Part shown: one piece after another, positions 22,172-39,321 of the stretch
Layout of the letters: every line of letters begins with the position of its first letter
Numbering within the stretch: position 1 is the first letter of the stretch
Assembly: GCA_020722215.1 (NCBI GenBank)
Contig: DYLG01000006.1
Coordinates: 1-39,321 of the forward strand
Direction of reading: 5' to 3'
Source: Desulfomonile tiedjei
Lineage (GTDB): Bacteria > Desulfobacterota > Desulfomonilia > Desulfomonilales > Desulfomonilaceae
DNA: 39,321 bases
Made by a program: the position numbers and the translations under genes
Notes under the pieces: generated by a model
What the model saw: only the letters and a program-made list of their open reading frames with translations
What the model was told of the DNA's origin: nothing
Database searches by the model: none

Positions 22172-24025
22172 CTAGAAGTGGCCGGCAAGGAATTTCTTCT
22201 TCAATCTGTTGCGTACCATTATGGATGCGGCATTCATTGCAAATACCAGAGAAATGAGAAGGAAAGTCGTCACGTACACCATTGGTCTGGCCGCTTCCGC
22301 GTCCGGAGACTGGAATCCTACATCAAATATGTGGAATCCCAAGTGCATGAAGCTCCGTTCAAGGTGAATAAAGGGGAAGAATCCGTCCACGGGCAGCATG
22401 GGCGCCAGTTTCACGACGCCCACCAGCATGAGAGGGGCTACCTCCTCTGCGCCTCTGGCCATGGCCAGTATCAACCCGGTCATGATCCCCGGCATAGCTC
22501 TGGGTAGGACGATGTACTTGATGGTCTGCCATTTGGAGGCGCCACAAGCAAGGGAGCCCTCCCGCATGGATTGGGGCACCGCGGCCAGAGCCTCCTCCGT
22601 GGCCACGATTACCACGGGAACAGTAAGCAGGGCAAGGGTAAGCGAAGCCCACAACAACCCGCCGGTTCCAAACGTGGGATTTGGCAGCCGCTCGGGATAG
22701 AAGAGTTCGTCAATCGTGCCTCCCAGGATGTACGCGAAAAACCCCAGCCCAAAAACGCCGTACACTATGGAGGGGACTCCTGCGAGATTGTTCACGCAGA
22801 TTCTCACCAGGGAAACGATCTTACCCTGCTTCGCATATTCCCGGAGGTACAACGCGGTCACCACGCCGAACGGCGCAACAGCGAGCGCCAGGAGCACAGT
22901 CATGCAGAGTGTCCCAAATATGGCCGGAAGCACTCCGCCTTCCGTGTTCGATGCCCTGGGTTCGGTGCTGAGGAATTCCCACCATCGAGAAAAGTACACT
23001 CCAACCTTCCCGACGAAAGACAGAGTGTTGGCAGGGTAAGCTCTGACAATCTCAGAGAGCCGCACGGTTTTTTCCCGGCCGTTAATGTCGGCCATGGTAA
23101 TGGTAAACTTTCCGTCCTGGGTTTCGATACCTGCGAGATCTTTTTCATGATCCGCGTAGTCGGTCTGCAATTTCTCCATTCTTGCGTCGCATTGTTGCTT
23201 GGCCTTGAGGCACTGCGGACCGGTTCCCATGTATTTCATCTCGGCCTTCCGGAGGGCGAGGCGCTCCTTTTCCATATAGTAATTGATTGCGCCCAGCTCC
23301 TTGCGGGTCAGATGATGGATTTGGTCACGTCTCTTCCTGGCCGCGTCCAGAGCCTTGGTGATAACGGCAGGGGTCAACTGGGGTCCGGAGACGATACTTC
23401 CGTTCAGATCGAGCGACTTTATCCTGCCGATGAACGGACCCCACTCGAGCCGCTCAAAATAGTACAGATCATGAGGGGTTGAGCGCTCGGCAAGGTCATA
23501 TTCGGGAATCCATCTGAAGCTGTGGCCGTAGAGATCGTAGTTGGCCGTCCTGTACAAATCTCTCACGACAAAGCCTTTGGAAGCAGCGATCTTGCGCCGG
23601 GCCTGTTCATCGAGATTTGCCAGGACTTCGGGGCCGGGCTTGAAACTCTCGGTCCGGAAGAGCGTTCCGGCAATAATCTTGCCGTCCTTGAGCTTCACCA
23701 TGTAAATGGGCGTCGGATAGAAGGTCAGAATACCGCTGCAAACAACGAAAGCTATGAACCCCACGATCATCAGAACCGCGAGGCACATTGCGCCGCCAAG
23801 GCTCCAGACGAACGGTTCGCCCCTTGCTCTGAAATCCCAGGCGCCGGGTTTTCCGGCGGGTCTGGCATGGAGGTGGGGCTGTGTCACAGGCCTGACGGGC
23901 CCCAACTTGGGTTCCGCGAACCGACGCGCAGGTCGGGATTCGGGAACCGGCGGCGAGACCCGCTGACCCTCTGCCTCGTTTTCGGCTATGTTTCCAGCAG
24001 TTGGCTGGTCTAAACGGGGTTTCAT
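22172..24025 (-). CDS. pstA: Phosphate ABC transporter permease PstA, extended form
   Basis: About 617 residues, twice the length of Escherichia coli PstA. Residues 1-70 are a hydrophilic Pro/Arg-rich cytoplasmic tail; the first membrane span is about 76-103. A periplasmic insert of about 260 residues follows (105-365), rich in charged helices (for example [23 protein letters not shown]). The permease core starts near 370, with EAA-loop sequence [22 protein letters not shown] near 479-500. Extended PstA with this N-terminal region (DUF3333-like) is known in some proteobacteria. ATG 24025 preferred, with AAGGGG upstream; a TTG codon just before it is the alternative. It lies 15 bases after pstC. 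Confidence 0.93.
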
Positions 24026-24040
24026 CAAAGGTTTCCCCTT

Positions 24041-26635
24041 CTAGAGCTGGCTGGCGCGTTTCCTGAAGTGCATGCGCACAATTTCTGCCACAGTATTGAT
24101 GACAAAGGTCATGGCAAAGAGAACCAAACCCGTCATGAACAGCAGGCGGTAGAGCGTGTCGCCCTTGGGGGCCTCGGGGAGTTCCACCGCGATATTTGCG
24201 GACAAGGCTCGCAGACCGTCGAATATACTCATGTCTATGAGGGGCGTATTGCCGGTAGCCATCACCACTATCATTGTCTCGCCCACGGCACGGCCCATGC
24301 CGATCATCACCGCAGAAAAAACTCCGCTGATTGCAGTGGGCAAGATGATCCAGATGGCGGTTTGCCAGGGAGTGGCCCCACATCCAAGACTTGCCGCGCG
24401 CAGGTGTTCGGGGACGGCGTTCAGTGCGTCCTCTGCCAGCGTGTATATGATCGGAATCACGGCAAAGCCCATGGCAAAGCCCACAACCATGGTATTGCGT
24501 TGCATGTAGTCGCCGATTACCGAACCGCGAGCGTCAAGGCCGAGTTTCTGCAAGATCAGGGCGCCGGCGTACGATAAGCCTACGGTGAGCAGTGCAATTG
24601 CAGACCATCGGCCCAGGTCGAGAGCCGCGGCCCAAAAAGGATGGAAGCCAATCAAGTGTCTCTTAATTCTGCTGCCGATGAGCCTCTCCGACAGAATCGA
24701 GACCCCCAGCGCAGACAGGGGCGTTAAAAGCAGAAACAGAAAAGGAGTGGCTTCTCCATGTCTGCCGTTTAGCCAGCCCTTGAAGTCGCCTCCGAATGCC
24801 CAGGACTCCACTATCGGGGCAAGTAGATATGCACTGTACAGGCCCAGGCCAACCACAACAAACATCACGATGAACTTGGGCGTCCCGTCGAACCGAACTG
24901 CCATTCGAGGAGGAAGCATTTGCCAAAGGTAAGCGGCAAGCATCAGCGTAGTGGGCAGCACCCCGAAGGCCAGAATTACCGCCACGATCCACGTCTCGAC
25001 AAAAGGAGCGAGAACAAGGGCTGCTATGAACCCCAACACAACGGAAGGTACGGAAGCCATTACTTCTATAACGGGCTTGAGCTTCCCTCTCATGTTGGGA
25101 CTCAGGAACTCGGAGGTGTAAATCGCAGCCAGAATGGCAATAGGAATCGAAAACAACAGGGAGTAAAAAGTTGCCTTGAGAGTCCCGAATATGAGCGGAA
25201 TCAGTGAAAGTTTCGGCTCAAAAGCTTCTGTAGCTCCAGAGGACTGCCAGGTGTACGATGGTGCGCCATAGCCTTCGTACCAGACCTTGCCGAAAAGCGT
25301 TCCGAGCGAGATTTCAGGATAATGCAGCTCCAAATTCCAGAAATCGGTCATTCCGCCCTTTCGTGCCGCCAGCAGGGCGTCGTCGCGCGGGGCCATGGTC
25401 ATACGCGTGTCTTGATTGTCGGCACGAGGTTCCTTCAGCTTGAGCAAGGTCCTGCACGTGGTTCCCTGCCTCACCCAGACCTCACCCTGCGCATCAGCCG
25501 TAGCGAACACCTTTCCTCTCCGGCTGGGAGCAAACGCAACGATTGCCGAGCGTTGAGGCTCGAAACTCCTCGTATGGACCAAGGCGTATCCGTCGGAACT
25601 GTCTGCTTCATTTCGTCTGAGCACGAAATATATGTTCACTGAACCGTCCGAGCCACCGACCACAATCGAGGCCTCGCCCAGCAGGTAGGCCAGGATGTTC
25701 AACTGAACTCCATCCGTTAGTACTTGGGCGGTCTCAGCAAGGTGAGGGCTTGAAGGATCCCTTATGTTGAAGCGATAGACTCGTCCATTCTTGTCCCCGA
25801 ATAATACGTCGGTGGCCAGTTCGTTGATCAGGGCGTGACTTATGGCAGCGTCCCTCTTGAGAGGCGGCAAGACTATCTTTTCGGTCGAAAGGGTCATCTT
25901 CCGAGTGAGGCGGTTCAATTTCGATTCAGCAAAAACAAGAGTTCCGACGCGCGCTTGGTCCATGACAGCCAGAGTTTGCTTCGGCGTGCCGCCAAAACGG
26001 GTGAAGCGGTAGTCCATGGCCATGATAGGGCTGCCGGTTTCGGATACTTTGATTTCCGGGTCCAGCGCGAGCTTCATCGTGCACTTGCGCGTCTGGTCGC
26101 CCGGAATCCTGCTGTAAACCGCAGACCCGTCGGTGGAATCCCTTTCATCCAGCACCTTCAACGCGTCGGGCAACTCAGCCGGGCCGAAGATCTCCGTCTC
26201 GAAGATCAACCGCCCCAGGCGTACAGTCCCGTCGGAAAATCCGAAGGCCACGTTGGAAGGATTGATTCCCTGCGAAAAGGCTGTGACCTGCTTTCCCTCC
26301 AAGTCGAAAGACTCGGTTTTCAGCGGAGTGCCCGTGGCGGGGTGCCAGACAACGACCTTACCGTCGGGACCAATCTTGGCGGCAATGGCCTTGAACTCGT
26401 CCACTGCCAGGCCCAGAACGGGTTGATCCGGTTCAGGGGCCAAGAAGGCATTGTGGGACTGGGCTTTTCCGCCTTTGAAGAGCGGAAGCACTACAGCCAC
26501 GAGAAATATCATGATGCCGAAAACCGCACCGATTACCGCTATGCCGCCGATCGAGATCACCCGATCCGCGACCTTATCAGCGATCAATACCCAGCGACGC
26601 GCTTTTCTGGTCCCAGTACCATCCGAATTGGTCAT
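24041..26635 (-). CDS. pstC: Phosphate ABC transporter permease PstC, extended form
   Basis: 864 residues, nearly three times the usual PstC. First membrane span about 28-55. Then a periplasmic region of about 420 residues built of short beta repeats (KIGPDGKVVVWHPATG, FGFSDGTVRLGRLIFE, VLFGDKNGRVYRFNI, VVGGSDGSVNIYFVL, KVFATADAQGEVWVRQG), which look like WD40/beta-propeller blades. The permease core begins near 485, with EAA-loop EDALNAVPEHLRAASLGCGATPW. The fusion matches the COG4590-type permeases (from memory). Role: with PstA forms the phosphate channel. What the propeller binds is unknown. Start ATG 26635 has a weak ribosome site. Located between pstS (133 bases upstream, with terminator) and pstA. 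Confidence 0.93.
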   Translation of the reverse strand: MTNSDGTGTRKARRWVLIADKVADRVISIGGIAVIGAVFGIMIFLVAVVLPLFKGGKAQSHNAFLAPEPDQPVLGLAVDEFKAIAAKIGPDGKVVVWHPATGTPLKTESFDLEGKQVTAFSQGINPSNVAFGFSDGTVRLGRLIFETEIFGPAELPDALKVLDERDSTDGSAVYSRIPGDQTRKCTMKLALDPEIKVSETGSPIMAMDYRFTRFGGTPKQTLAVMDQARVGTLVFAESKLNRLTRKMTLSTEKIVLPPLKRDAAISHALINELATDVLFGDKNGRVYRFNIRDPSSPHLAETAQVLTDGVQLNILAYLLGEASIVVGGSDGSVNIYFVLRRNEADSSDGYALVHTRSFEPQRSAIVAFAPSRRGKVFATADAQGEVWVRQGTTCRTLLKLKEPRADNQDTRMTMAPRDDALLAARKGGMTDFWNLELHYPEISLGTLFGKVWYEGYGAPSYTWQSSGATEAFEPKLSLIPLIFGTLKATFYSLLFSIPIAILAAIYTSEFLSPNMRGKLKPVIEVMASVPSVVLGFIAALVLAPFVETWIVAVILAFGVLPTTLMLAAYLWQMLPPRMAVRFDGTPKFIVMFVVVGLGLYSAYLLAPIVESWAFGGDFKGWLNGRHGEATPFLFLLLTPLSALGVSILSERLIGSRIKRHLIGFHPFWAAALDLGRWSAIALLTVGLSYAGALILQKLGLDARGSVIGDYMQRNTMVVGFAMGFAVIPIIYTLAEDALNAVPEHLRAASLGCGATPWQTAIWIILPTAISGVFSAVMIGMGRAVGETMIVVMATGNTPLIDMSIFDGLRALSANIAVELPEAPKGDTLYRLLFMTGLVLFAMTFVINTVAEIVRMHFRKRASQL

Positions 26636-26768: not shown

Positions 26769-27743
26769 CTATTTCGTCATCCCGCCGGCCTTGAGGTTCT
26801 CCTCAGCCTGGGCCCATGAAATTGGATAGAAATGGGCCTTCAATACGCAAGACTGCCCTTCCTTGGAATTGACAAACTTTATGAACTCGGCCATCAAGGG
26901 TGTCAATGCCTGTTTGGGGCTCTTGTTGAAGTACTGGTACAGGTCGCGGGCCAGTGGATAATCTCCGCTGTAAGCATGTGCGGGGTTCATCGGATCAAAG
27001 TACTTTCCGGCCTGTTTTCCGATGAGAACCACCTTAACATCAGCAGTCTTGTAGCCCACACCCGAATAGCCGATTGCATACTTGTCCGAAGCCACGGCAT
27101 TGATCACCCCGGAGGAGCCGGATTGCTCCTTGACTGTGTCCTTGTAGTCCCCGTGGGCCAACGCCTCTTCCTTGAAGTAAGCGTAGGTTCCGGACGCGGA
27201 GTTGCGGCCGTACAGGACGATCGGCTTGTCCGCCCACTCTCCCGTGAGACCCAGGTCGCCCCACGTCTTGATATCCTTGGAGCCGCTTTTAAAGGTCTTC
27301 GAAAAGATCCCGTCAAGCTGGGCAAGGGTAAGCCCTTTGATAGGATTGTCCTTGTGCACGAAAACCGCAAGAGCGTCTATGGCCACGGAGATGCGCGCAG
27401 GCTTATAACCGAACTTTTTCTCGAACTTCTCTATTTCGCTCGGCTTCATCTCCCGGGACATGTCTCCGATCTGCGCTGTTCCTTCGATCAATGCGGGCGG
27501 CGCAGTACCTGATCCTTTGCCCTCAAGGGATGTCTTGACACTGGGATAAAACTTGGTAAATGCCTCGCACAGATAGCCCACCAGGTTATTCAACGTGTCC
27601 GATCCGACGAACTTCAGCTCCCCGGATACTCCACTCACCTTCTGGTAAGCCGGGAACTTCGGATCGATGTCCACTGCCATGGCCGGCGCCGCAACAATCA
27701 GCACGCTCACACAAATGGCAAGCAGAGATAGCCTCTTAAACAT
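26769..27743 (-). CDS. pstS: Periplasmic phosphate-binding protein
   Basis: 324 residues. Signal peptide MFKRLSLLAICVSVLIVAAPAMA, cleaved after AMA; no lipobox. Phosphate-binding elements of PstS are present: FVGSDTLNNLV near the start, GKGSGTAPPALIEGTAQIGDMSREM, GRNSASGTYAYFKE and the GSSGVINAVASDKYAIGYSGVGY loop. It captures phosphate and delivers it to PstCA. AAGGAGG lies 6 bases before ATG 27743. First gene of the pst operon; a terminator-like hairpin follows. The upstream 200 bases contain three TAACC repeats and a region CTAACAT-4-CTAATAA that loosely resembles a Pho box, but the match is poor. Confidence 0.95.
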   Translation of the reverse strand: MFKRLSLLAICVSVLIVAAPAMAVDIDPKFPAYQKVSGVSGELKFVGSDTLNNLVGYLCEAFTKFYPSVKTSLEGKGSGTAPPALIEGTAQIGDMSREMKPSEIEKFEKKFGYKPARISVAIDALAVFVHKDNPIKGLTLAQLDGIFSKTFKSGSKDIKTWGDLGLTGEWADKPIVLYGRNSASGTYAYFKEEALAHGDYKDTVKEQSGSSGVINAVASDKYAIGYSGVGYKTADVKVVLIGKQAGKYFDPMNPAHAYSGDYPLARDLYQYFNKSPKQALTPLMAEFIKFVNSKEGQSCVLKAHFYPISWAQAEENLKAGGMTK

Positions 27744-27958: not shown

Positions 27959-28753
27959 TCATAACATGCCGGATAACCTGGCGAAAAACTCGATTATGAC
28001 CGGCCCGGCCATTACGTACGTTACTGCTCCCACCGCGATGAACGGTCCATAAGGTATCGGCGTTGTTGAATCCACGCCGCGCAGAACCATGCCGGATATG
28101 CCGATCGCTGCACCGGTCACGGATGAAAAGAACAACACGAACACGACGCCGACCGGTCCCGTGAACGTCCCGATCATTGCAAGCAGTTTCACATCGCCGC
28201 CGCCAAGCCCTTCCGTCCCGCGAATCATTTCGTAGAGCACCGCAGGCACATAGAGCACCGCTCCCCCCAGCACCATGCCGATCAGCGAGGACTTCCAATC
28301 CATTCCCGGAATCAGGCCCAGAATCGAAGCTCCCAACCCGATGGGCAAGCCGTTGAGGGATATCTCGTCCGGGATGATCATGTGATCCAGGTCTATCCAG
28401 AAGACCACAACCATGGCGGCGCAAAACACGGAAAACACAAGAAGGGCGGGCGAGTATCCAATCCGGACATAGAGCCCGCAAAACAAAGCCCCTGTGACGA
28501 GTTCCACCAGCAGATATCGGGGAGAAATCCGCGTTGCGCAGTCTCTGCATCGGCCCCTGAGAGCGAGGTAACTCACTATGGGAATGTTGTCGTAAAAGCG
28601 GATGGGGCTGCCGCATTGCGGGCACCTTGAAGGAGGCGAGACAATGGATTGCTCCATGGGAAGCCTCAGAATGACGACGTTCAGAAAACTTCCTATTGCA
28701 GCGCCGTATACGAACGAGACTAGCATCCAGTAAAGACTTTGATCACCAGCCAT
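27959..28753 (-). CDS. Prepilin peptidase / N-methyltransferase (A24 family)
   Basis: 264 residues, polytopic membrane protein. Cleaves the leader of type IV pilin-like proteins and methylates the new N-terminus. The N-terminal domain has the signature GSFLNVVILRLP and the zinc-binding pairs C44-C47 and C69-C72 of the methyltransferase part. Catalytic aspartates are in the WIDLDHMIIPD (D121/D123) and GGGDVKL (D187) motifs. Start moved to ATG 28753, which has AGGAG 6 bases upstream and begins right before the first membrane helix; a longer frame to 28903 adds an atypical Cys/Arg-rich tail. It is the PilD/GspO type. It links to the motility genes nearby but no pilin gene is in the window. Confidence 0.92.
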   Translation of the reverse strand: MAGDQSLYWMLVSFVYGAAIGSFLNVVILRLPMEQSIVSPPSRCPQCGSPIRFYDNIPIVSYLALRGRCRDCATRISPRYLLVELVTGALFCGLYVRIGYSPALLVFSVFCAAMVVVFWIDLDHMIIPDEISLNGLPIGLGASILGLIPGMDWKSSLIGMVLGGAVLYVPAVLYEMIRGTEGLGGGDVKLLAMIGTFTGPVGVVFVLFFSSVTGAAIGISGMVLRGVDSTTPIPYGPFIAVGAVTYVMAGPVIIEFFARLSGML

Positions 28754-28826
28754 TTCAACTCCTGCGAAAGTATTCACATGAAAAGGCCATAGAGCAGGCC
28801 AACCGTGGCCGATTTCTCGCGTTCCG

Positions 28827-30506
28827 TTATGACAGGGGGGAGCCATGGCTGTTTGCCGGGCTTCGGGTCCGCATGGTTTCCGTTCCTGCCAAGGTGACCT
28901 CATAGGGGTATTCGCGCCGGATTAGCCAGGCCTGTTCGAGAGTGGCCACAATGACCGTCACGCAATCCAAGGGAACGCTTTCCAGGGCCAGGTCTTTGGG
29001 CAGCCTCCATTCACGTTCCACCGACCAGTCCGGTCCGGAATCTTTCAGGATTTGAAACAAGTACCTCTTATCCTTGGGCAGCGTGCGGAAAAGCTGCTCG
29101 CCCCCATAAATTACCGCTTCGGCGCCGAGCTTGATCAAGGTCGCCTTGTCGATTGCGATGCCGTAAGGCTCGAAGCTCCACCGGATGAGCCCGCTGCGCC
29201 ACTTGACAAGCTGCTCGAGTTCGCCGGGAAGGCACTCGGTGAAGGAAACCACAGGGACGTTGCCCCTGATCAGCCTGGCCGAACCGCGAATCAGGCCTTC
29301 GTCAAGAATACGCGTCAGGGTGTCGAATCCGGTGTGCCCACAAGTCGCGTGTCCGTCTATGAGACATTGGCAGTACTGTCCCAAGGTCTGACCAGGCCAC
29401 GGACCGCTGAGGGATCTCGTGTAATGAACAAGCCACAGGCCGCTTCCGGGCCAGTTCCGCAGCTTGAGAACTCGCCTTGGCACACGACCTTTTTCAACAG
29501 GGTTAGCGATTTCCCTCGGAGGTGATGCCGATTCGTCAGGCAACCAGATCGGCTCGATATTCCGGCCGGCATTGCTGCCCAGGATGTTGAGATTCCCGGC
29601 GGTCATGCTGTCGGCCTTGCCCGGAACGAATACCCTGATTCTCGTGCCTGTGCGGGACGCCTGTATGACGAGGGCTTCCATGTTCCCTCCCCCCCTCACC
29701 GCGGCCACGTAAACCGTCAGAGACAAGGCGATCACCAGCTTGTCCCGTTCACGATTCCTGGCCGCGGATGACGGCATTCCGCCAGGAGGAAACGGAGAAA
29801 CGACGAGGGTTGTGCGAGGATGAAAAAGATCATGGTGTCGATCGACAAACGCTTGCATCCGTTCACCGGACTGCATGAAAGGCAAAGCCTCGTCGCATAC
29901 CATGATGAGAGGGACCGAGCTGACTCGTGCGAGACGGCTGACTACAGCATAGGCCACAGTTCCGTAGCTTGAAACAACGGCGCAATGGTCCCTGCAAGCC
30001 TCGTGGAAAAGGATCCGCGTCACTCTGACCCAGGGTTCATCAGGAGCGATACGCCTTGGCTTGCGCGAATTCAGAACCGCAGCAGCCTTGAGGCCCGTCA
30101 CATCCGCGCTGCCCCATGCAAAGAGCATTGGAGGCAGATCGGGCAGGCTCTCGCCAGGAAGCCCCTGGGTGTGCCGTCTTAGCACTCTAAGGCCGCGGGC
30201 CAGCCATTGATCCACTCTCCTCATCGCGTGTTCCACCCGGGACGAATTGGGTCTTGCTTCCGCTCCTAACTCAACGCCGAGCCTGTAGCAGGCGTCGGCC
30301 AATGCCGCGACTATACTTCCTGACGATGAAACACCGATGCGAGCCATCTCCAAGGCGACACGAATCCGTTGCAGACAACCGAGCGAAGAGCGCGATTCAA
30401 GGAGGGCGCAAGCAAGAAGGGCTGGGGCGACTTCCTCCCGACTCATCGTACGCCAAGGAGCATCTTCGGCAACCGTATCCTGGTTCATCGATGAAATTGA
30501 CACCAC
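28827..30506 (-). CDS. DprA/SLOG-like domain fused to an ART-like C-terminal domain; function unknown
   Basis: 559 residues, no signal peptide or membrane span. Residues 1-120 are helical and unrecognised. Residues about 125-325 follow the DprA (DNA-processing A) Rossmann pattern: PMLFAWG, AAVLNSRKP (for VAIVGSR), VVSSYGTVAYA, VSPFPPGG, RNRERDKLVIALS (for RNRIIAGLS), then FVPG and GNLNILGSNAG. Residues about 357-535 form a second domain with HYTRSLSGPWPGQ (H361), VVSFTE (422-424), PYGIAI, AEAVIYG and DWSVEREWR (E497/E499). That pattern recalls DUF2971/AbiGi/DarT-like families; ADP-ribosyltransferase activity is inference only. Start GTG 30506 has GAAGG at good spacing; ATG 30491 is the alternative. 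It lies 73 bases upstream of the prepilin peptidase gene. Confidence 0.65.
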   Translation of the reverse strand: MVSISSMNQDTVAEDAPWRTMSREEVAPALLACALLESRSSLGCLQRIRVALEMARIGVSSSGSIVAALADACYRLGVELGAEARPNSSRVEHAMRRVDQWLARGLRVLRRHTQGLPGESLPDLPPMLFAWGSADVTGLKAAAVLNSRKPRRIAPDEPWVRVTRILFHEACRDHCAVVSSYGTVAYAVVSRLARVSSVPLIMVCDEALPFMQSGERMQAFVDRHHDLFHPRTTLVVSPFPPGGMPSSAARNRERDKLVIALSLTVYVAAVRGGGNMEALVIQASRTGTRIRVFVPGKADSMTAGNLNILGSNAGRNIEPIWLPDESASPPREIANPVEKGRVPRRVLKLRNWPGSGLWLVHYTRSLSGPWPGQTLGQYCQCLIDGHATCGHTGFDTLTRILDEGLIRGSARLIRGNVPVVSFTECLPGELEQLVKWRSGLIRWSFEPYGIAIDKATLIKLGAEAVIYGGEQLFRTLPKDKRYLFQILKDSGPDWSVEREWRLPKDLALESVPLDCVTVIVATLEQAWLIRREYPYEVTLAGTETMRTRSPANSHGSPLS

Positions 30507-30681: not shown

Positions 30682-32433
30682 TCATGGCAGTGAGCTTGGG
30701 CTTTCCTCTCCGGTGAGGACTGCCAGGATGTTTTTCAGCCTTTCAAGGTCCTTGACCGTAACCCGGTTTCTGTTGACTTTCACGATGTCCAGAGATTCCA
30801 GCTTGCCGAGGTATTTCTTGACTTGAAGGGAGTCGTCAAGCCTGAACATGTCCCTCAATTCCTTAACGTCCACGGATGTATCTTTTCTGACCGAGTTCCT
30901 GATATGCAGATATGCCAGGCCGGATAAGAGGCGACTGAGATCGTCTTTGTGGAGAAGACCCGCCAGGAGGGCCTCGGAATCTCTGAGTTTTTCCACCAGG
31001 CCGATAATGATTCCGCGGGAGAAGTCCTGGGGAATGAGCTTGAAGAAGGCATCCTTCTCTATCTTGACAAGAGTGCAGTCTTGGAGGGCCCTGGTATAGC
31101 CGCACCGATAGCCGTTGTCCAGCAATCCGGTCTCTCCGAAGAAGTCCCCTTCCTCCAGGACGGCAATGGTTTGCTTGATCTGTCCGGCCTGGAAGAAGTG
31201 TCCAACTTTTCCGGATTTGATGAAATATACGCAACTTGCCGGATCGTCGTGATGGAAGACAAGCTTGCCTGAGCCGATGTTCTCCGTCTGCGTGAATGCC
31301 TTGGATATTTGACTGTCGGAAGGTTCTGTTGACTCCGCTGCCTCATCTGCTCTTAAGAAGTCTTTGCTCGGCCCGACCGGCATGTCCGTCTTTTCGAACG
31401 TCTCCAGGGACTCCATTCCCGTGGGTCCTTCATTGAAAAGCTTCTTCAGCCGCCGCTTGTCCATGGCGATTTCCCGGGGAAACAGCTCTCGCACATACTC
31501 GGAAAACACCCTTCTGTCCGTGACCAAGGAGCACTTAAGACTAACGGAGCGCAAATCGTCGATCATGTTCTCCATCCAGGGATAGCGGTCTTCAGGGTGT
31601 GCCGCCATGGCCTTTATCAGGACCGGCTTGATCTCGGGATGGATGCGGTCATCGCCCTCGACTCTGGCGCGGACGTCCATTTCGAGAATCAATTTGACAG
31701 TATCACCGGCGGTTTCTTGATGATCCACCAGACGTTCCCCGGTGAGAAGCTCGTAAAGGAACAGGCCTGCGCCGTAGATGTCCACCCGATGATCCGTAGG
31801 TTTGCCGCGAATCTGTTCCGGAGAAAAGTACAGGAGCTTGCCCGCCACCGGCAAGCCGTTGGAATTGGATTGATCAAGAAATATCCTGGCGATACCGAAG
31901 TCGATGATCTTTACGTCGCTCTCATAGGAAATCATTACATTGAACGAATTGAGGTCCTGATGGACCAGTTTCATGTTTTCATCATTCGGGTCCTTCTTCC
32001 TATGGGCATATGCCAGACCGGCGGCCACCTCCATCATGACATACACCGCGAAATCCAGCCTGGGGAGACGGCCCGCTTTCCTGGCCTTGGACAGCATATG
32101 GGCCACGTTTCGGCCTTCAATGTACTCAAGAGCGATGTAGTATTCCCCATTTAGCATTCCCGCATCAATTATCTGCACGATGTTGACATGATTGAGCTGA
32201 GCCAGGGTTTTGGCTTCGTTCATGAACCTCTGGACATAGCGCGGCATTGCCGCGTATTCCGGAAAAAGTTTCTTGATGATGAGCGGTTTCTGGAAGCCCC
32301 CTGGGCCGACCATCTTGCCAAGATAGATGTCGGACATCCCGCCCCGAGAAACCCTCTCAACAAGGTAATACCTGCCGAAAAGGGAAGGCTTGAAGATGAC
32401 GGGCCGGCCTTTGTCCTTTGAATGAGTCACCAT
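30682..32433 (-). CDS. Serine/threonine protein kinase fused to cNMP-binding domain and winged helix
   Basis: 583 residues. Kinase domain about 18-300: Gly-rich loop SRGGMSDIYLG, ATP-binding K54/K55 (PLIIKKL), catalytic loop VHQDLNSFN (D160, N165), DFG 178-180, APE-like SPEQ. The usual HRDLKxxN is changed at R (Q159) and K (N162), though D and N remain. A linker of about 85 residues precedes a cyclic-nucleotide-binding fold (about 385-475: IKSGKVGHFFQ, VLEEGDFFGETGLLDNGYR) and a CRP-like C-terminal winged helix (about 500-575). This suggests nucleotide-gated phosphorylation or DNA binding, not shown. It starts 23 bases after the CheW-like gene and ends the Mgl operon. ATG 32433 has a weak ribosome site. 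Confidence 0.85.
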   Translation of the reverse strand: MVTHSKDKGRPVIFKPSLFGRYYLVERVSRGGMSDIYLGKMVGPGGFQKPLIIKKLFPEYAAMPRYVQRFMNEAKTLAQLNHVNIVQIIDAGMLNGEYYIALEYIEGRNVAHMLSKARKAGRLPRLDFAVYVMMEVAAGLAYAHRKKDPNDENMKLVHQDLNSFNVMISYESDVKIIDFGIARIFLDQSNSNGLPVAGKLLYFSPEQIRGKPTDHRVDIYGAGLFLYELLTGERLVDHQETAGDTVKLILEMDVRARVEGDDRIHPEIKPVLIKAMAAHPEDRYPWMENMIDDLRSVSLKCSLVTDRRVFSEYVRELFPREIAMDKRRLKKLFNEGPTGMESLETFEKTDMPVGPSKDFLRADEAAESTEPSDSQISKAFTQTENIGSGKLVFHHDDPASCVYFIKSGKVGHFFQAGQIKQTIAVLEEGDFFGETGLLDNGYRCGYTRALQDCTLVKIEKDAFFKLIPQDFSRGIIIGLVEKLRDSEALLAGLLHKDDLSRLLSGLAYLHIRNSVRKDTSVDVKELRDMFRLDDSLQVKKYLGKLESLDIVKVNRNRVTVKDLERLKNILAVLTGEESPSSLP

Positions 32434-32456: not shown

Positions 32457-33746
32457 CTAGTGGAAGGCCGCTTCGTTCAAGATGGTATACGCGACGTTCC
32501 CTATCTTGATTTTGTGCTCTTTGGACAGATTCACTCCTTTGGGCGATCGTCGATAGCCCAAGGTCCTTTCAGCCAGAACAAAGAACTCCTTGCCCCCGAT
32601 GAGCACGTGGATCAACCAACCGGGCAGGGCCTTGGCCTGGGATTCGGCAACCTCGGGTAGCTTGAGGGGCAGTTTGGGGACCGGTTTGTTTGCAAGCACC
32701 AGGGTAGCCTTGTCGACGAATTGCTCCGCCTGGGACTTGCCCAGGGGGTAGAGCGCCGAGACCGCAACGGAAGGGATGGCCAAAGCCACTCCGCTCAACT
32801 GAACCATAAGCAGTCCGTCCGGGCCGGACTTCCCGTCCTCCGTCGGGCCGCGGCCGATGGGTTGGGCATCGTGTTCCGGCGACAGGCGAGAAAGTTCCCT
32901 GTGAAGAGCGGAGAGCTTGCCAACCCGATCAGCCAAATGACTTTCGAGGCTCCCGAGTCTCCGGGCGATTTCTCCTTCGGGCATGTCTCCTCCCTTTCGG
33001 AGGACGGCCAGCAGCCTGGCCAGTCGCTGACTGATGTCCTCGAGCGACTGGACGGCGCCCCCCAGACTCCCCATCACAGACCCGAAATCGGTTGCAGCCG
33101 GGGTCTCATGAGGCTGAGGCCGGGCCTGCTCCGTGGGAGGCAGTATTTGATGATAGTTGGATACTATGGTTGCCAGCAAGGCTTTTTCCGGAGGTTTCCT
33201 GCCCTTGGAAGCGTGAATCTGCCTTATTGCCGACACACTGTCCTTCAGCAACTGCACCATCAACGGGTGCGGGGCGACTCCGGGTGTGCTGCAGCGCTGC
33301 AACACGCGAAGATTCATGTTGACGATGGTTCTTGGATGACCCTCCTTGGGCAGAAAACGAACCATGTCCTTGAAGTTCTCGGACAAACGATGTATCGTTT
33401 GGATTTCGGCTTCCCATTCAACGTCCAGAATCAAAGCATCGATCCTGTCCAGCAATTCCTCCAGGCCTCCGGCTCTTTTCTGTGGCACTGCCGGAGCCTG
33501 TGGCGGAGACTGGCGCGCAGCGGGCCGGGCAGGCTCGGTCCTTGGCGCAGCGGGCCGTTGCGGGGCCGCTGGGGAGCGGGCAGGCTTGGGCTCAGCGGGT
33601 TGAGTTTGCTGAGGGGCAGGTTGCTCGTCGAACAATCCGCCGAACAGCTCCTCAATCTTCTGTCCCACGGCCATTCCAAGTTCTTCCGGGCTTTTGTATT
33701 CCTTGTTGTCCGCCACAGGCCTTCTCCGGACCACGGATGAGTTCAT
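32457..33746 (-). CDS. Probable CheW-like scaffold protein with Pro-rich N-terminus
   Basis: 429 residues. Residues 40-95 are a low-complexity Pro/Ala/Gln/Arg segment. The middle is helical, with possible four-helix or coiled regions (LEELLDRIDALILDVEWEAEIQTIHRLSENF; LEDISQRLARLLAVL; ADRVGKLSALHRELSRL). The last 115 residues (GLLMVQLSGVALAIPSVAVSALYPL ... WLIHVLIGGKEFFVLAERTLGYRR) have the strand spacing of a divergent CheW/SH3-like domain. I read it as a scaffold linking MglA to the kinase, but this is tentative; it could be an unrelated Mgl effector. Its ATG 33746 overlaps the mglA stop (ATGA), so the two are translationally coupled. Confidence 0.5.
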   Translation of the reverse strand: MNSSVVRRRPVADNKEYKSPEELGMAVGQKIEELFGGLFDEQPAPQQTQPAEPKPARSPAAPQRPAAPRTEPARPAARQSPPQAPAVPQKRAGGLEELLDRIDALILDVEWEAEIQTIHRLSENFKDMVRFLPKEGHPRTIVNMNLRVLQRCSTPGVAPHPLMVQLLKDSVSAIRQIHASKGRKPPEKALLATIVSNYHQILPPTEQARPQPHETPAATDFGSVMGSLGGAVQSLEDISQRLARLLAVLRKGGDMPEGEIARRLGSLESHLADRVGKLSALHRELSRLSPEHDAQPIGRGPTEDGKSGPDGLLMVQLSGVALAIPSVAVSALYPLGKSQAEQFVDKATLVLANKPVPKLPLKLPEVAESQAKALPGWLIHVLIGGKEFFVLAERTLGYRRSPKGVNLSKEHKIKIGNVAYTILNEAAFH

Positions 33747-34378
33747 TTGCCGGTCAGACTTATCCCCTTCTCTTTCAAGAGACGGGCGCTGACATCCACG
33801 ACCGTCATCATGCAGATTTTCTTGAACGTTTCCCTCACTCCGTCCCCCTTGAGGGCGCTTCCCGGAAAGGATGGATGACGGCCTTGGGTGTTGAGGGTTC
33901 GTTCCATCTCTTCAATGGGCATTATGGCAACCTTACTACCGTCCAGGTCCCGCTTGTTGTATTGGAATACAAGCGGGACCGAATTGAGCCCCTTTCCTTG
34001 CTCAGTCAAGTTGTCGTTGAGGTTCTGCAAGCTCTCGATATTGTTGTTCCTTCTGGCCTCCAGGGAATCGGCCACAAACACTATCCCGTCCACTCCCTTG
34101 AGAACCAGTTTCCGCGTGTCGTTGTATCGGACCTGTCCAGGGACCGTGTACAGGGATATCTTGATCTTGAATTTCCCAATGGATCCAAGGTCCATGGGCA
34201 GGAAGTCGAAGAACAGCGTTCGGTCTCCCGCGGTATCTATGGAGAGCAGTTCGCCGCGGGCTTGATGCCCCAAAGCCTTATGGATAGATATCAGGTTCGT
34301 GGTCTTGCCACCCCTTCCAGGACCGTAATAAACGATCTTACAGTGAATCTCATCAGATCGAAAGCTGATTATTGCCAT
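33743..34378 (-). CDS. mglA: MglA-family Ras-like GTPase
   Basis: 211 residues. Small GTPase of the MglA/Rup family that sets cell polarity for gliding or type IV pilus motility. G1 GPGRGGKT at 19-26, R53 in TAGDRT, Q82 in TVPGQ, G4 NKRD at 141-144 and G5-like GSALKGDGV. R53 and Q82 match the catalytic residues known in Myxococcus/Thermus MglA. The N-terminal MAIISFRSDEIHCKIVYYGPG matches the family start. AGGAT precedes ATG 34378. Coupled by ATGA to the CheW-like gene and downstream of mglB by 230 bases, the usual order MglB then MglA. Confidence 0.94.
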   Translation of the reverse strand: MAIISFRSDEIHCKIVYYGPGRGGKTTNLISIHKALGHQARGELLSIDTAGDRTLFFDFLPMDLGSIGKFKIKISLYTVPGQVRYNDTRKLVLKGVDGIVFVADSLEARRNNNIESLQNLNDNLTEQGKGLNSVPLVFQYNKRDLDGSKVAIMPIEEMERTLNTQGRHPSFPGSALKGDGVRETFKKICMMTVVDVSARLLKEKGISLTGK

Positions 34379-34608: not shown

Positions 34609-35025
34609 TCAAGCATTGAACCACTCTCTAAGATTCTGCGCAAACATGGTTTCGATCTCGGCCAGCCCTTTCTGAACTTCCAGACGCACAAGCCCGAGAT
34701 GAGTGTTGTTGTTGAACACTGTGATCATCAGATATTCCTCTCCCACATTGGAGAAATGAAGATTCTCCTGTTTCCCCTTGTGAAAGAGCAGGGTGAATTC
34801 CTCTTCGCCGAACAAACGGGCTATGGCCGTTGTGGCACCGTAGTTGGCTGCAGTAAGAGCTGCCAAGGAGGAAACCTTCTCCTGGTCCATAGATCCCTCA
34901 AAGCTGATGATTTGTCCAGCCTTGTCGATCAACAGCACCGTATGGGCTCCGCTCCGCTTGAGCATGTTTGCCAGCACGGAGTCAATACGATCCAGGGCCT
35001 GTTTGGTGAGAACGAGATCTCCCAT
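34609..35025 (-). CDS. mglB: MglB-family roadblock/LC7 protein
   Basis: 138 residues. Roadblock/LC7 fold that acts as GTPase-activating protein for MglA. Features: LTKQALDRIDSVLANMLKRSGAHTVLLIDKAGQIISFEG, then LAALTAANYGATTAIARLFGEEEFTLLFHKG and a C-terminal helix (LRLEVQKGLAEIETMF). AGGAG precedes ATG 35025. It is 230 bases upstream of mglA; the gap holds no gene. DUF4388 gene lies 383 bases further upstream on the same strand. Confidence 0.92.
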   Translation of the reverse strand: MGDLVLTKQALDRIDSVLANMLKRSGAHTVLLIDKAGQIISFEGSMDQEKVSSLAALTAANYGATTAIARLFGEEEFTLLFHKGKQENLHFSNVGEEYLMITVFNNNTHLGLVRLEVQKGLAEIETMFAQNLREWFNA

Positions 35026-35408: not shown

Positions 35409-35729
35409 TCAACCGCACTTACCGTCAATGCGCCTCAAACTCTCAACAAGCAGAAAGTCCCAGCTTCTGCAAATCGTTTCCCTGTCGTGAGACAACTCTC
35501 GGCATTGAAATACTCCGAGTCTCCAGGAAAGAATCTTGTATAAAGCCTCCTCTCCCTCCAAACGGTCATTGACCGCGTGCACGATTTCTCCGTGTTTGAA
35601 GCTGATCACTCCTCTTTGCGTTCCGCTCCGTACGTCCATGCAGCAGGTGCAACCGGAGACGCAGACAAGCTGAATGACGTCGTGGAGGCTTGTATTACTC
35701 ACTCTACCGGTGAATCCGTTTTGCTTCAA
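35409..35729 (-). CDS. DUF4388 domain protein with Cys cluster
   Basis: About 106 residues. The core follows DUF4388 (PATAN-like): GFTGRVSNTSLHDVIQLV, MDVRSG, RGVISFKHGEIVHAV, GEEALYKILSWRLGVFQC. Such domains occur with roadblock and response-regulator proteins in deltaproteobacterial signalling and motility. Unusual: C23, C27, C29, C30 in LVCVSGCTCCMD where most members have no Cys. Start uncertain: I use TTG 35729 with GGGGGAG about 10 bases upstream; ATG 35840 in the same frame would add 37 Arg/Cys/Gly-rich residues that do not look like protein. It is the first gene after the promoter at 35975-36003 and precedes mglB. Confidence 0.65.
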   Translation of the reverse strand: MKQNGFTGRVSNTSLHDVIQLVCVSGCTCCMDVRSGTQRGVISFKHGEIVHAVNDRLEGEEALYKILSWRLGVFQCRELSHDRETICRSWDFLLVESLRRIDGKCG

Positions 35730-35974
35730 TTTCCGCGCCGCTCCCCCGTTCTGCAATCGAAAACAGCCCCACCCGCCCTTTGACGGCGAACATCTCCGCC
35801 GACAAGAGTCTCGAACCCGGTTACCGTAGCCGTTTTGCATCTAAGTCTTTGCGCATCACATGAAGTTCGTGAGGAACAACATCCCTTCCTTTACTTGATT
35901 TTCGAGGTCGACAGGCCCTGACGGGGTTAGTCCCGCCGTGACTTCCGTGCCTCGTTCCGCTTTTCTCCATGCGT

Positions 35975-36206: not shown

Positions 36207-36566
36207 ATGGAGAACATGTTCGAGCAACCGGTTAAGATGATGCAACAGGCATGGGACACGTGGCGCAAAATGATCGAAGAAAGCCCCGGCTGGCCGAAAG
36301 ATGCGGGCGCGGTGTTCAGGGAGAATATCAGCCAGTGGCTCTCAAGCTTCAATTCCGCGTACAGTGCTAACATGGACGCATGGAATGCGTTCGCAAACCA
36401 GAATCAAGAGGCGTTCTTCAAGATTTACAGGGACTCCCCCTTCTTCGTGCAGGCCACGGAGACCCAGATCCGGGATGCCTGGAACAACATGGTCAAAGCC
36501 CACAAGGCCTACCAGGAAATTGTCAAGGAGAGTCTCGATAAGATCCAGGCTGCCCTGAAAGAGTGA
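36207..36566 (+). CDS. Phasin-like small helical protein
   Basis: 119 residues, all-helical by appearance, no Cys, no signal peptide. The pattern (FEQPVKMMQQAWDTWRKMIEESPGW, WLSSFNSAYSANMDAWNAFANQNQEAFFKIYRDSPFF, IRDAWNNMVKAHKAYQEIVKESLDKIQ) resembles phasin-type polyhydroxyalkanoate granule-associated proteins and related small coiled proteins, rich in Trp and amphipathic helices. Not specific enough to be sure; PHA synthase genes are not in the window. AGGAGG sits before ATG 36207. It has its own promoter and terminator and is convergent with cheB. Confidence 0.55.
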   Translation: MENMFEQPVKMMQQAWDTWRKMIEESPGWPKDAGAVFRENISQWLSSFNSAYSANMDAWNAFANQNQEAFFKIYRDSPFFVQATETQIRDAWNNMVKAHKAYQEIVKESLDKIQAALKE

Positions 36567-36665: not shown

Positions 36666-37733
36666 TCACAGATCTGCCAGGAATTGCGCCATTAGGAAGT
36701 CAGGGAGGATTTTTTCCACGGATCCCTTTTCCAGGACGGAAAGCGGCATGGAGGGATCCATGCAGTTGGTGATGTCCTGCACTACGCCGACTCCGCCGGC
36801 TTTGCGGATCGCCACAATCCCTTCGGCTCCGTCGTATCCGGCTCCGGACATGACAACTCCCACTGCCCGGTTACCGGCGGTCCGTGCGAGGGACTTGAAG
36901 AGCCTGTCAATGGGGCCAGTGACAAGAGGCTCTTTGGACCGCTCTTCCCGGGACAGAATCAATCCGGTGTCATCAATCCTGAGAAGCGCTCCTTCCAGGC
37001 CGGAACTCACATAGCACACACCTTTTGCAGGTACTGTCACGCTGTGCGGACTTCTCACCGATACCTTGCTGTGAGTGTCCAGATAACTCACGAAAGGGGC
37101 GACAAACTTCGGGGCAGCCAGAATAACCACAATAAGCACATTGGCGAATTCCCGGGGCAAGTTGGGGATCACTTTGAGCATTGAGTAGTACCCGCCGGTT
37201 CCAACGCCGATTCCGACGAATCGAGTCGCGGAGTCGGCGGGTTTCCCCGGCTGCGGCTTCCGGGAAGCTTCAACGGGTGATATCCTGACGTATCTGGACT
37301 TGCCGGTTCTGATGTCTGCAGCTCTCTTGACCTTGGTGATGATGTCGGCCTTTTGATCATCAAGAGATGCGTCCGCTCGCTTGGACGGCTTGGCTATCAC
37401 GTCGATCGCTCCATACTTGAATGCGTCGAATGCTGTCTTTGACCCTTCCGGAGTGATCGCGCTTATCATTAAGGTGGGAGTTTCGTGCTTGACCATGATG
37501 TGCTTCAGGGCCGTCAGCCCGTTCATGCGCGGCATTTCCACATCGAGCGTGATCACGTCCGGCTTGGCGGTCTCGAGCTTCTCCAGGGCTTCAATTCCGT
37601 CTGCGGCCTGTGCGATCACTTGGATGTCGGGGTCGCTGTTGAGAAAGGCCGTGATCTGTTTGACCATGAGCGAAGAGTCATCCACGACCATCACTCGAAT
37701 GGGTCTCCTGCGCTTGCCGCTGTTCATGTCCAT
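36666..37733 (-). CDS. CheB-like response regulator with degenerate methylesterase domain
   Basis: 355 residues. N-terminal receiver with acidic VVDDSS and phospho-acceptor D64 (ITLDVEMPRMNG), K near IAKP. C-terminal domain is the CheB methylesterase fold (from about residue 170), but the catalytic Ser motif IGASTGG is IGVGTGG (Ser to Gly178), and the His motif QHMPPGF is ILAAPKF (His to Leu205). The Asp-loop GYDGAEG (D301) is kept. It should not act as a classical Ser-His-Asp esterase. Start ATG 37733 (AGGA close by); ATG 37727, 4-base overlap with the ParA stop, is equally good. Follows cheA and parA in one operon. CheB normally adjusts receptor methylation; here a regulatory role is more likely. 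Confidence 0.85.
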   Translation of the reverse strand: MDMNSGKRRRPIRVMVVDDSSLMVKQITAFLNSDPDIQVIAQAADGIEALEKLETAKPDVITLDVEMPRMNGLTALKHIMVKHETPTLMISAITPEGSKTAFDAFKYGAIDVIAKPSKRADASLDDQKADIITKVKRAADIRTGKSRYVRISPVEASRKPQPGKPADSATRFVGIGVGTGGYYSMLKVIPNLPREFANVLIVVILAAPKFVAPFVSYLDTHSKVSVRSPHSVTVPAKGVCYVSSGLEGALLRIDDTGLILSREERSKEPLVTGPIDRLFKSLARTAGNRAVGVVMSGAGYDGAEGIVAIRKAGGVGVVQDITNCMDPSMPLSVLEKGSVEKILPDFLMAQFLADL

Positions 37734-38518
37734 TGTTCCTGCCCGGGGGCCGATCTCCCAAGGATCTCCCGGGCCAGAGAAATGTACGCCTTGGAGCCTG
37801 GAGATTCCATGTCGAAAGCGACAACCGGCTGTTGCCGGTTGGGCACTTCAGCCACGCGAGGATCTCGGGGAATGATCGTGCGAAAAGCGTGCGTCTTGAG
37901 GTATTGGCGGACCTCCCGGATCACCTTGATGGTGAAGCGGGCTCTCTTGTCAGCCATCGTGAGCAGGAAACCGAAGATACCCAGTTTGGGATTGGCATTT
38001 TTCCTAACTTCAAGAGCAGCGCGCAGCACATTGCCTACTGTTGCCATGGATGAATACTCGCATTGGACCGGAACAAGATAGGAATCTGCCACGGCGAGAG
38101 CCGCCTGTGTAGGCGTGTCCAGCCTGGAAGGGCAATCAACGAGGATGAAATCGTATGCAGGCCTGATGCGCTCGGCAACCCGTCGAAGCCGGCCGGCGTT
38201 ATTGGCAAGGATCTCCACCAACCGGGCTTCTTCGGCAACCGACGCCACATTTATCGGGATCAGGTCCAGCCGGGGAAGGCGTTCATGACATCTGTAGACT
38301 ACGTCCGCAGGAGATGCCTGCTCGCTCAAGACTTCAAACAAGCCGGGGCGGTCCTTGGACGAATCCAGTCCGAAGGATCTTTCCAGTCCGCCCTGTGGAT
38401 CCATGCCAATGAGCAGGACTCTGCGCTTGATGGCCGAGAGACAGGCTCCCAGGTTTACCGCCGTTGCCGTCTTCCCCACTCCGCCTTTCTGGCTGACTAT
38501 TGCTACTAATTGGCCCAT
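37724..38518 (-). CDS. ParA/MinD-family ATPase of chemosensory operon
   Basis: 264 residues. Walker A KGGVGKTAT (residues 11-19) and second motif MDPQGGLERSFGL, with Walker B-like ILVDCPSRLDTPT. The ParA fold ends near the C-terminus with KAYISLAREIL. Placed between cheA and cheB, it fits ParC-type proteins that partition chemosensory arrays, as known in Vibrio and Rhodobacter; role here is inferred. Its TGA overlaps the ATG of the cheB gene. Ribosome site of ATG 38518 is weak. It starts 24 bases after the cheA stop. Confidence 0.85.
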   Translation of the reverse strand: MGQLVAIVSQKGGVGKTATAVNLGACLSAIKRRVLLIGMDPQGGLERSFGLDSSKDRPGLFEVLSEQASPADVVYRCHERLPRLDLIPINVASVAEEARLVEILANNAGRLRRVAERIRPAYDFILVDCPSRLDTPTQAALAVADSYLVPVQCEYSSMATVGNVLRAALEVRKNANPKLGIFGFLLTMADKRARFTIKVIREVRQYLKTHAFRTIIPRDPRVAEVPNRQQPVVAFDMESPGSKAYISLAREILGRSAPGQEQWT

Positions 38519-38542: not shown

Positions 38543-39321
38543 CTATAGGTTGGCACGCGCGTGTTGCCTGGTTGATTCAGCCTGTCCCACCCGTGAAGCA
38601 ACTGCTTGCCTCTGTCGGAGGATGATGTCGTCCACCAATTCTCCCACATCAAGCACGAGAGCTATGGTTCCGTCACCAAGGATGCTGGAGCCGGCCAGCC
38701 CTCTGGTCTTCCAGACGTGCTCCGCCAGGGGTTTGATGACCACGTCTTGTTCCCCCATGAGTTCCTCCACCAGGAATCCCACGGTCTTTAGTCCTGTCGT
38801 GGCCAGGACAACGAATCGGGGTTCCGAATCCGTCGTGCTCTTGTCAAGACGAAACACCTCGTTCATACGCAATATGGGGATGGTCTCCTGCCTGAACTTT
38901 ACCACCTGGAATCCTTCCATTGAGTGGATTTCCTGTGGAGCCACCTGGATGATTTCTCTCACCGAGATCAAGGGGATGGCGAATACGTGGGTTCCGAACC
39001 GGATCAGGAGCGTCTGGATTATTGCCAAAGTCAGAGGAATCTTGATGGATATGCGGGTCCCCTTGGCTTTCCAGGACTCCACTTCCACGTGGCCGTTGAT
39101 CTTTTCCACGTTCCTCTTCACCACGTCCATTCCTACGCCCCGACCGGAAGTTCGAGTCACTCTCTTGCTGGTGGAAAAACCAGGCAGGAACAGGAAACTG
39201 TACAAGTCTTCAGGTGCGGAGACGTTTTTCACATCCCTTGGATCCAGCAGTCCACTCTGAATAGCCCTCTCTAGGGCGCTCTCCGTATCGATGCCGCTCC
39301 CGTCGTCCTCCACGTCGATGA
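38543..39321 (-). CDS. cheA: CheA histidine kinase, C-terminal part (cut by window edge)
   Basis: About 259 residues visible; the frame runs through the window end, so the Hpt, dimerisation and N-terminal ATPase parts lie beyond 39321. Visible: G1-type VEDDGSGID, a long lid with FLFLPGFSTS, G2 motif TSGRGVGMDVV, catalytic-domain end GTRISIKIPLTLA, then the CheW-like domain (TLLIRFGTHVFAIPLISVREIIQV...TIPILRMNEVFRL...VLATTGLKTVGFLVEELMGEQDVVIKPL). This is the histidine kinase core of a chemosensory pathway. Lower boundary is TAA/TGA at 38543. Followed by ParA and CheB genes. Confidence 0.93.
   Translation of the reverse strand, partial: IDVEDDGSGIDTESALERAIQSGLLDPRDVKNVSAPEDLYSFLFLPGFSTSKRVTRTSGRGVGMDVVKRNVEKINGHVEVESWKAKGTRISIKIPLTLAIIQTLLIRFGTHVFAIPLISVREIIQVAPQEIHSMEGFQVVKFRQETIPILRMNEVFRLDKSTTDSEPRFVVLATTGLKTVGFLVEELMGEQDVVIKPLAEHVWKTRGLAGSSILGDGTIALVLDVGELVDDIILRQRQAVASRVGQAESTRQHARANL

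Follow-up and report, generated by a model that had tools for sequence, protein, structure and literature searches.

A CheB-like protein of Desulfomonile tiedjei with the catalytic serine and histidine replaced and the receiver kept

The CheB-like gene and its operon

The window, that is, the whole stretch of DNA analysed here, comprises 39,321 nucleotides of a Desulfomonile tiedjei contig (DYLG01000006.1, assembly GCA_020722215.1) and carries on its minus strand a gene for a CheB-like protein, here called pseudo-CheB1, beside genes for a ParA/MinD-type ATPase and part of a CheA kinase. CheB proteins are usually annotated, by similarity, as active adaptation enzymes. The four codons listed below were placed by alignment, and their positions were computed from the open reading frame.

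36666 to 37733, minus strand: CheB-like protein (pseudo-CheB1), 355 aa, ATG start (open reading frame and Pfam)
37542 to 37544, minus strand: codon of receiver Asp64 (E. coli CheB Asp56), kept
37200 to 37202, minus strand: codon of Gly178, at the site of catalytic Ser164
37119 to 37121, minus strand: codon of Leu205, at the site of catalytic His190
36831 to 36833, minus strand: codon of Asp301, at the site of catalytic Asp286, kept
37724 to 38518, minus strand: ParA/MinD-type ATPase, 264 aa, sharing 10 bases with the start of the CheB-like gene (open reading frame and Pfam)
38543 to 39319, minus strand: CheA fragment from the C-terminus, with HATPase and CheW domains, truncated where the contig stops (aligns with residues 873-1115 of the operon CheA)

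Pseudo-CheB1 has the domain order of a CheB methylesterase, with a receiver (Response_reg, residues 14-120, 8.4e-23) preceding a nearly full-length CheB_methylest domain (residues 173-350, 2.4e-33; both are whole-protein E-values). The catalytic triad of CheB is Ser164-His190-Asp286, as given in the available part of PMC3180692. When aligned with E. coli CheB from NC_000913 (locus L050), the reference for residue numbering, the corresponding residues of pseudo-CheB1 are Gly, Leu and Asp, leaving the triad incomplete, and the HMMER alignments to the best PDB matches, 6ymz and 1a2o, likewise set Gly178 opposite Ser and Leu205 opposite His. The initial annotation had read both replacements from this protein, together with an intact catalytic Asp and an intact receiver; the replacements are confirmed by all three alignments, and Asp301 and Asp64 by that with E. 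coli CheB. An additional loss lies at the position of Met283, which aligns with Ala298. Met283, part of the TGMG loop, has a catalytic role in CheB. Scored for this protein, the NCBIfam CheB models return 258 bits against a cut-off of 293 (NF001965) and 228.9 against 342 (NF009206).

The receiver residues D18, D19, D64, S91 and K115 are invariant among nine aligned family members. A displaced triad, with intact Ser and His elsewhere in the fold, was looked for and rejected; each Ser and His of the esterase domain varies among the same nine members, and hence there is no sign that the triad has been relocated. Pfam finds in pseudo-CheB1 neither a DUF4388 domain, which we take to be the PATAN domain, nor a CheW domain, and the protein has the make-up neither of a PATAN response regulator nor of CheV, in which CheW is fused to a receiver. 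An AlphaFold2 model, made with pseudo-CheB1 and one Planctomycetota CheB as input, reached a pLDDT of 53.6 and a pTM of 0.43, too poor for use.

CheB1 is the last gene of a conserved operon. In relatives whose contigs are long, the genes run DUF4388 protein (in most), second CheB-like protein (600-680 aa), CheW, MCP with dCache, HAMP and MCPsignal domains, CheY, HAMP protein (~240 aa), CheA (~1140 aa), ParA and CheB1; in the mechanical gene list for some loci, a long opposite-strand open reading frame displaced a small operon gene. ParA adjoins CheB1 in the operons of L035 and L037-L040. The ~240-aa HAMP protein between CheY and CheA (L040:8167-8880 and its equivalents) is conserved and has no recognised signalling domain. 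A match to CheA residues 1-877 lies at the edge of another contig of the same genome, C199 (L046), with the rest of the operon, and we infer that the window contig and C199 are neighbours, with CheA split between them; their ends share no overlap of at least 20 bases.

Orthologues in the family and their adaptation enzymes

Among 60 related genomes that were searched, close relatives turned up in the window's own family (f1), of which 18 genomes, the window's own included, were examined. CheB1 occurs in eight of these, namely the window's own genome and, with 49-59% identity, G002, G004, G005, G007, G008, G010 and G012; no match in the other ten exceeds 35%. Exactly the same eight genomes have the operon CheA, which reaches at least 54% identity in its kinase part; the remaining genomes give no more than 38%. 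In each of the eight, which belong to seven genera, CheB1 is an open frame beside the operon CheA with a full-length CheB_methylest domain; the Ser site is Gly in all eight, the His site is Leu in seven and Gln in one, and the Asp site is always Asp. The comparison with homologues proposed in the initial annotation thus finds the same Ser and His losses in relatives. Sequencing error was rejected as an explanation, because both residues are missing from the orthologue in all eight of the 18 family genomes with the operon, the same substitutions appearing in independent genomes.

Additional dispersed copies of the broken CheB1 are found in G007 and G008 (L041, L044, L045). The catalytic Asp is lost in the copies on G007 C4 and G008 C111, and receiver residues Asp10/Asp11 are changed in those on G007 C48 and G008 C111. 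The copies at L044 and L045 combine changed receiver residues with a C-terminal DUF4388 match, below the Pfam cut-off in L044. A single scan of genome contigs for relatives returned one distant locus, and a scan of viral contigs returned none.

The second CheB-like protein of the operon, of ~600 aa (L046:7380-9203), consists of a DUF4388 domain, a receiver and a CheB domain; the L040 copy (606 aa) has the same three. Among the eight family genomes it keeps the Ser in seven, has Asp (seven) or Asn (one) at the His site, and never has Asp at the Asp286 site. Both CheB-like proteins of the operon are therefore broken, each in its own way, since their triad losses differ. The two are alike in their intact receiver Asp, incomplete triad and shared operon; in contrast to pseudo-CheB1, the second protein carries DUF4388, mostly keeps the Ser and loses the Asp. 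It is probably a sister effector of pseudo-CheB1.

CheR in the same operon is the usual partner of CheB, without being strictly required. None of the CheR matches in the eight genomes lies in the operon. The only CheR match of the window's own genome (an assembly 82% complete) is on contig C171, where it accompanies the only one of the genome's three CheB matches to have a complete triad. G005 has only its two broken CheBs plus one CheR match, and the only CheB domain of G002 besides its broken CheBs has Glu at the Asp site and lies in a 1108-aa frame that also has a CheR match; because no full-triad CheB was found in them, these two genomes, both with the operon, seem to be without an ordinary intact CheB. 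The operon MCPs, examined by eye, retain a segment rich in Glu and Gln where the methylation helix usually lies, so that the receptor may still be methylated; the window's own genome also has CheR and an intact CheB elsewhere. The strict methylation-site consensus does not discriminate, as only three receptors match it (the operon MCPs of L112 and L114 and another MCP, L129) among 14 operon MCPs and nine others, a count taken outside the other-receptor loci L123, L130 and L135.

Broken CheBs across the phylum and the genes around them

Further broken CheBs came to light when 395 genomes of the phylum were searched with a profile and regions were fetched. In all, 113 aligned CheB rows were collected. 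Of these, 29 have the triad and Met283 (the Met being part of the definition of intact), four have the triad without Met283 (all CheB1 of family f43) and 80 are broken. Second copies of the L035, L043 and L112 rows were excluded from the 113, as were two rows that aligned over no more than 280 columns, L043 825-2204, which is not a CheB, and L169 10381-11382, which is a broken one. The broken rows come from 11 family codes (f1, f15, f37, f43, f49, f56, f66, f79, f84, f91 and f101), with f61 in addition. Their receivers keep Asp56 in all 80 rows, Lys107 in 79, Ser83 in 78, Asp11 in 77 and Asp10 in 71. As for the triad, Ser164 is present in 19 of 80 and Asp286 in 32 (the site is not Asp in 48), and His190 and Met283 occur in no broken row (counted in a set of 84, the 80 plus four repeats); the triad counts are partly circular, because broken was defined by the triad, and the receiver counts and the absence of Met283 are not. 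Around the triad, the true-CheB consensus positions 192, 195, 196, 281 and 283 are largely replaced in broken CheBs.

In f15 (G054, G091 and G154), two broken CheBs accompany CheR in all three genomes, and the operon also contains an intact CheB in G054 and G091, the two with enough contig. The f15 operons at L043 and L116, with two broken CheBs, CheR and an intact CheB, may represent an intermediate state; TauE-type membrane proteins are encoded at L043 as well. The five f43 genomes have three CheB-like proteins per operon, CheB1 and two broken ones. This CheB1 keeps Ser, His and Asp in four of five and has lost Met283 in all five, with Glu after the Ser and Gln or Arg at the Met283 site (copies in L111-L115); it could still be active, have been altered or be heading for loss. 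Eighteen distant regions were chosen from the profile hits, hence not at random, and in 12 of them three CheB-like proteins stand in a row near CheA. None of these 36 proteins has a complete triad, and all 36 have the receiver Asp. L180-L182 add seven more broken rows, L183 and L184 have one intact CheB each, and the genome of L168, a region outside the 12, has three broken CheBs (locus L095).

A quick tree built from 69 rows gathers the 11 CheB1 rows from the family of the window into one starred group, which joins the f15 600-aa protein and f43 CheB1 (87, unstarred), and all intact CheBs fall in a separate group (97, starred) that also leaves out the other two broken groups, with the caveat that long branches meet in the 600-aa group. 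Because f43 CheB1 keeps the triad in four of five, the loss of Ser and His probably took place inside the CheB1 lineage.

Further along the minus strand of the window, beyond the CheB-like gene, lie the following genes:

35409 to 35840, minus strand: small DUF4388 protein, between the CheB-like and mglB-like genes (Pfam)
34609 to 35025, minus strand: MglB-like Roadblock protein (best solved relative MglB, 1.7e-23)
33743 to 34378, minus strand: MglA-like small GTPase (best solved relative MglA, 4.9e-56)

We infer a functional link of the MglA/MglB-like genes to the operon. In 12 of the 18 distant regions, the same 12 for MglA and for MglB, homologues stand no more than ~3 kb from the broken CheBs, and both of the distant loci examined with Pfam also hold an HDOD protein and a PilB/GspE-type ATPase (MshEN domain, TPR matches). 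Within the family, an orthologue of the MglA-like GTPase is found in all eight genomes with pseudo-CheB1; in the seven others (79-86% identity) it is on another contig or far away, so that the MglA-like gene is beside pseudo-CheB1 only in the window. G003 and G006, the two family genomes without pseudo-CheB1 that were tested, gave no MglA-like homologue below 1e-20. Related GTPases also lie within a few kilobases of intact-CheB clusters in four genomes (G004, G008, G010 and G012), and the GTPase link is therefore not specific to broken CheBs.

FliM was found in none of the 18 family genomes and none of the three f15 genomes, and in two of the five f43 genomes; several of these genomes are incomplete. 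The family genomes seem to be without flagella, and since FliM is missing from most, the flagellar motor is not the usual target. PilB/GspE-type ATPases are present in all eight pseudo-CheB1 genomes, and the window itself contains a type IV prepilin peptidase (27959-28903). The MglA/MglB-like genes beside the CheB-like gene in the window, and those in 12 of the 18 distant regions, make type IV pili a plausible output. Response regulators of the DUF4388 (PATAN) type are linked to the type IV pilus in cyanobacteria, according to the available part of PMC7690835.

The window shows several other features near these genes. A 429-aa protein right after the MglA-like gene (32457-33746) has no Pfam match and a C-terminal part that by eye resembles a CheW fold; proteins of 538-569 aa occupy the same place in L169 and L171, with no significant similarity to it. 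Downstream of the MglA/MglB-like genes a Ser/Thr protein kinase is fused to a cyclic-nucleotide-binding domain (30682-32433), and between the CheB-like and DUF4388 genes a 119-aa plus-strand open reading frame (36207-36566), without a Pfam match, looks phasin-like by eye. Farther off, an 864-aa ABC permease (24041-26635), whose N-terminal half weakly matches WD40 beta-propellers (below cut-offs), is flanked by a PBP-like binding protein (26769-27743) on one side and another permease (22172-24028) on the other.

A probable CheB pseudoenzyme and its possible outputs

The loss of catalytic residues, the retention of the switch and the occurrence of the same losses in close relatives suggest that an adaptation enzyme has been turned into a non-enzymatic signalling part. 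This agrees with the proposal of the initial annotation that esterase activity is lost and a signalling role kept, a proposal further supported, at the level of sequence, by the receiver Asp in 80 of 80 broken rows and by the operon context. That annotation covered neither the CheR-less operon with its second broken CheB nor the occurrence of broken CheBs throughout the phylum. Once CheA phosphorylates an ordinary CheB, its receiver and esterase domain come apart. By analogy, the operon CheA would phosphorylate the receiver of pseudo-CheB1 and phosphorylation would open the interface between receiver and esterase domain, exposing a domain that, unable to hydrolyse methyl esters, would serve as a binding surface. 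The likeliest partner would be on the output side, rather than in the setting of receptor methylation. A polarity switch of the MglA/MglB type and type IV pili are the strongest candidates, suggested by which genes lie nearby, by the lack of FliM and by the analogy with cyanobacterial DUF4388/PATAN proteins, as described in the available part of PMC7690835. We therefore lean towards the view that pseudo-CheB1 is an esterase-dead, receiver-controlled CheB pseudoenzyme that acts by binding, most likely on the output side. Against this view, the output partner is named from gene neighbourhood, among the eight family genomes the MglA-like gene is adjacent in the window alone, such GTPases also occur near intact CheBs, the operon receptor may still be methylated, and the close sister group f43 CheB1 may be active. 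A wider reading is offered tentatively, with rather less than even confidence, in which this mostly non-flagellate class of operons uses its two or three broken CheBs as phosphorylation-gated effectors that carry the CheA signal to an MglA/MglB switch and the type IV pilus motor, so that former adaptation enzymes would form an output layer.

Other explanations can be weighed against the constraint on the two domains. Among f1 CheB1 proteins, identity is 73.9% in the receiver versus 48.6% in the esterase domain (28 pairs, none reversed), and the intact CheBs (21 rows, 207 pairs) show no such gap (61.1 versus 60.4%). The corresponding values are 70.6 versus 68.0% for f43 CheB1, with its triad in four of five, 80.3 versus 49.0% for the second CheB of f1, and 80.2 versus 48.1% and 85.4 versus 64.4% for the two broken f43 groups, pairs with receivers at least 95% alike having been left out throughout. 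In three pairs the esterase domain has a pN of ~0.35-0.42 of pS (for the window's own protein against that of G010, pN is 0.284 and pS 0.669 in the esterase domain, and 0.183 and 0.715 in the receiver), figures that are rough because synonymous sites are near or at saturation. By these measures the esterase domain is less constrained than the receiver yet under purifying selection.

The far stronger conservation of the receiver, with its phosphorylation residues invariant in nine aligned members, favours a phosphate sink, in which the receiver alone matters, as a drain for the phosphoryl groups of CheA, with the esterase domain left over as a passive remnant. A sink needs no esterase domain, however, and the idea is weakened by the full length of that domain in eight operon members and by the purifying selection on it; the operon, moreover, already holds a single-domain CheY, and we regard a sink as unlikely. 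It also seems improbable that pseudo-CheB1 is a decoy that docks on the methylation helices of the operon receptor, shielding them from the intact CheB or competing with it, and so tunes adaptation without catalysis. The operon does have its own MCP, the genome encodes, on C171, a single CheR and a single intact CheB, and in another family G054 and G091 combine broken CheBs with CheR and an intact CheB in the operon; against this, the five positions flanking the triad are largely replaced in broken CheBs, and G002 and G005 hold the operon yet seem to have no ordinary intact CheB.

A site rebuilt for some other reaction, for example around Asp301, kept in the eight operon members, or Cys240, invariant in the nine aligned members, is very unlikely: the other Ser and His residues offer no invariant alternative, the G007 C4 copy and the 48 broken rows counted above do without the Asp, and nothing places Cys240 near the cleft. 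A decaying duplicate without function can hardly be credited, for the lower conservation of the esterase domain and the further decay of the dispersed G007 and G008 copies, two of them at receiver residues, are set against an open frame beside the operon CheA in eight of eight genomes of seven genera and invariant phosphorylation residues in the receiver.

A search of the open literature, with most subscription journals outside its reach, found no description of catalytically broken CheBs, and the available part of a Geobacter comparison counts CheB homologues and makes no mention there of lost residues (PMC2577667). A CheB homologue that fails the defining catalytic test would thus be a new variation on known CheB. 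Judged by their residues, whole groups of CheB-like proteins, with complete receivers and in sets of two or three per operon, could not be methylesterases of the known kind, and adaptation-enzyme counts and adaptation models for these bacteria would then be mistaken. Should the broken domains bind a partner on the output side, they would illustrate how a chemosensory pathway can trade its adaptation branch for additional outputs, and would connect CheA with MglA and type IV pili in a way that can be tested.

Compared with known systems, pseudo-CheB1 is like the CheB methylesterases (6ymz, 1a2o) in domain order, length, near full-length alignment, receiver residues and the position of the catalytic Asp; it differs from them in that Ser, His and Met283 are replaced, flanking positions are changed and the operon contains no CheR. 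The Frz system of Myxococcus xanthus, in which a CheA-type kinase steers the MglA/MglB polarity switch, is alike in pairing a chemosensory kinase with MglA/MglB, whose homologues are linked to the kinase here solely by being nearby. To our knowledge, no broken CheB has been reported in Frz, and we know of no CheB domain in the cyanobacterial PATAN-CheY proteins. Those regulators, PixE, PixG and LsiR of cyanobacterial type IV pilus phototaxis, are receivers with a PATAN domain and are thought to act on the pilus, in the available part of the account in PMC7690835, whereas here pseudo-CheB1 itself is without DUF4388 and it is the operon partner and the small neighbour that carry this domain.
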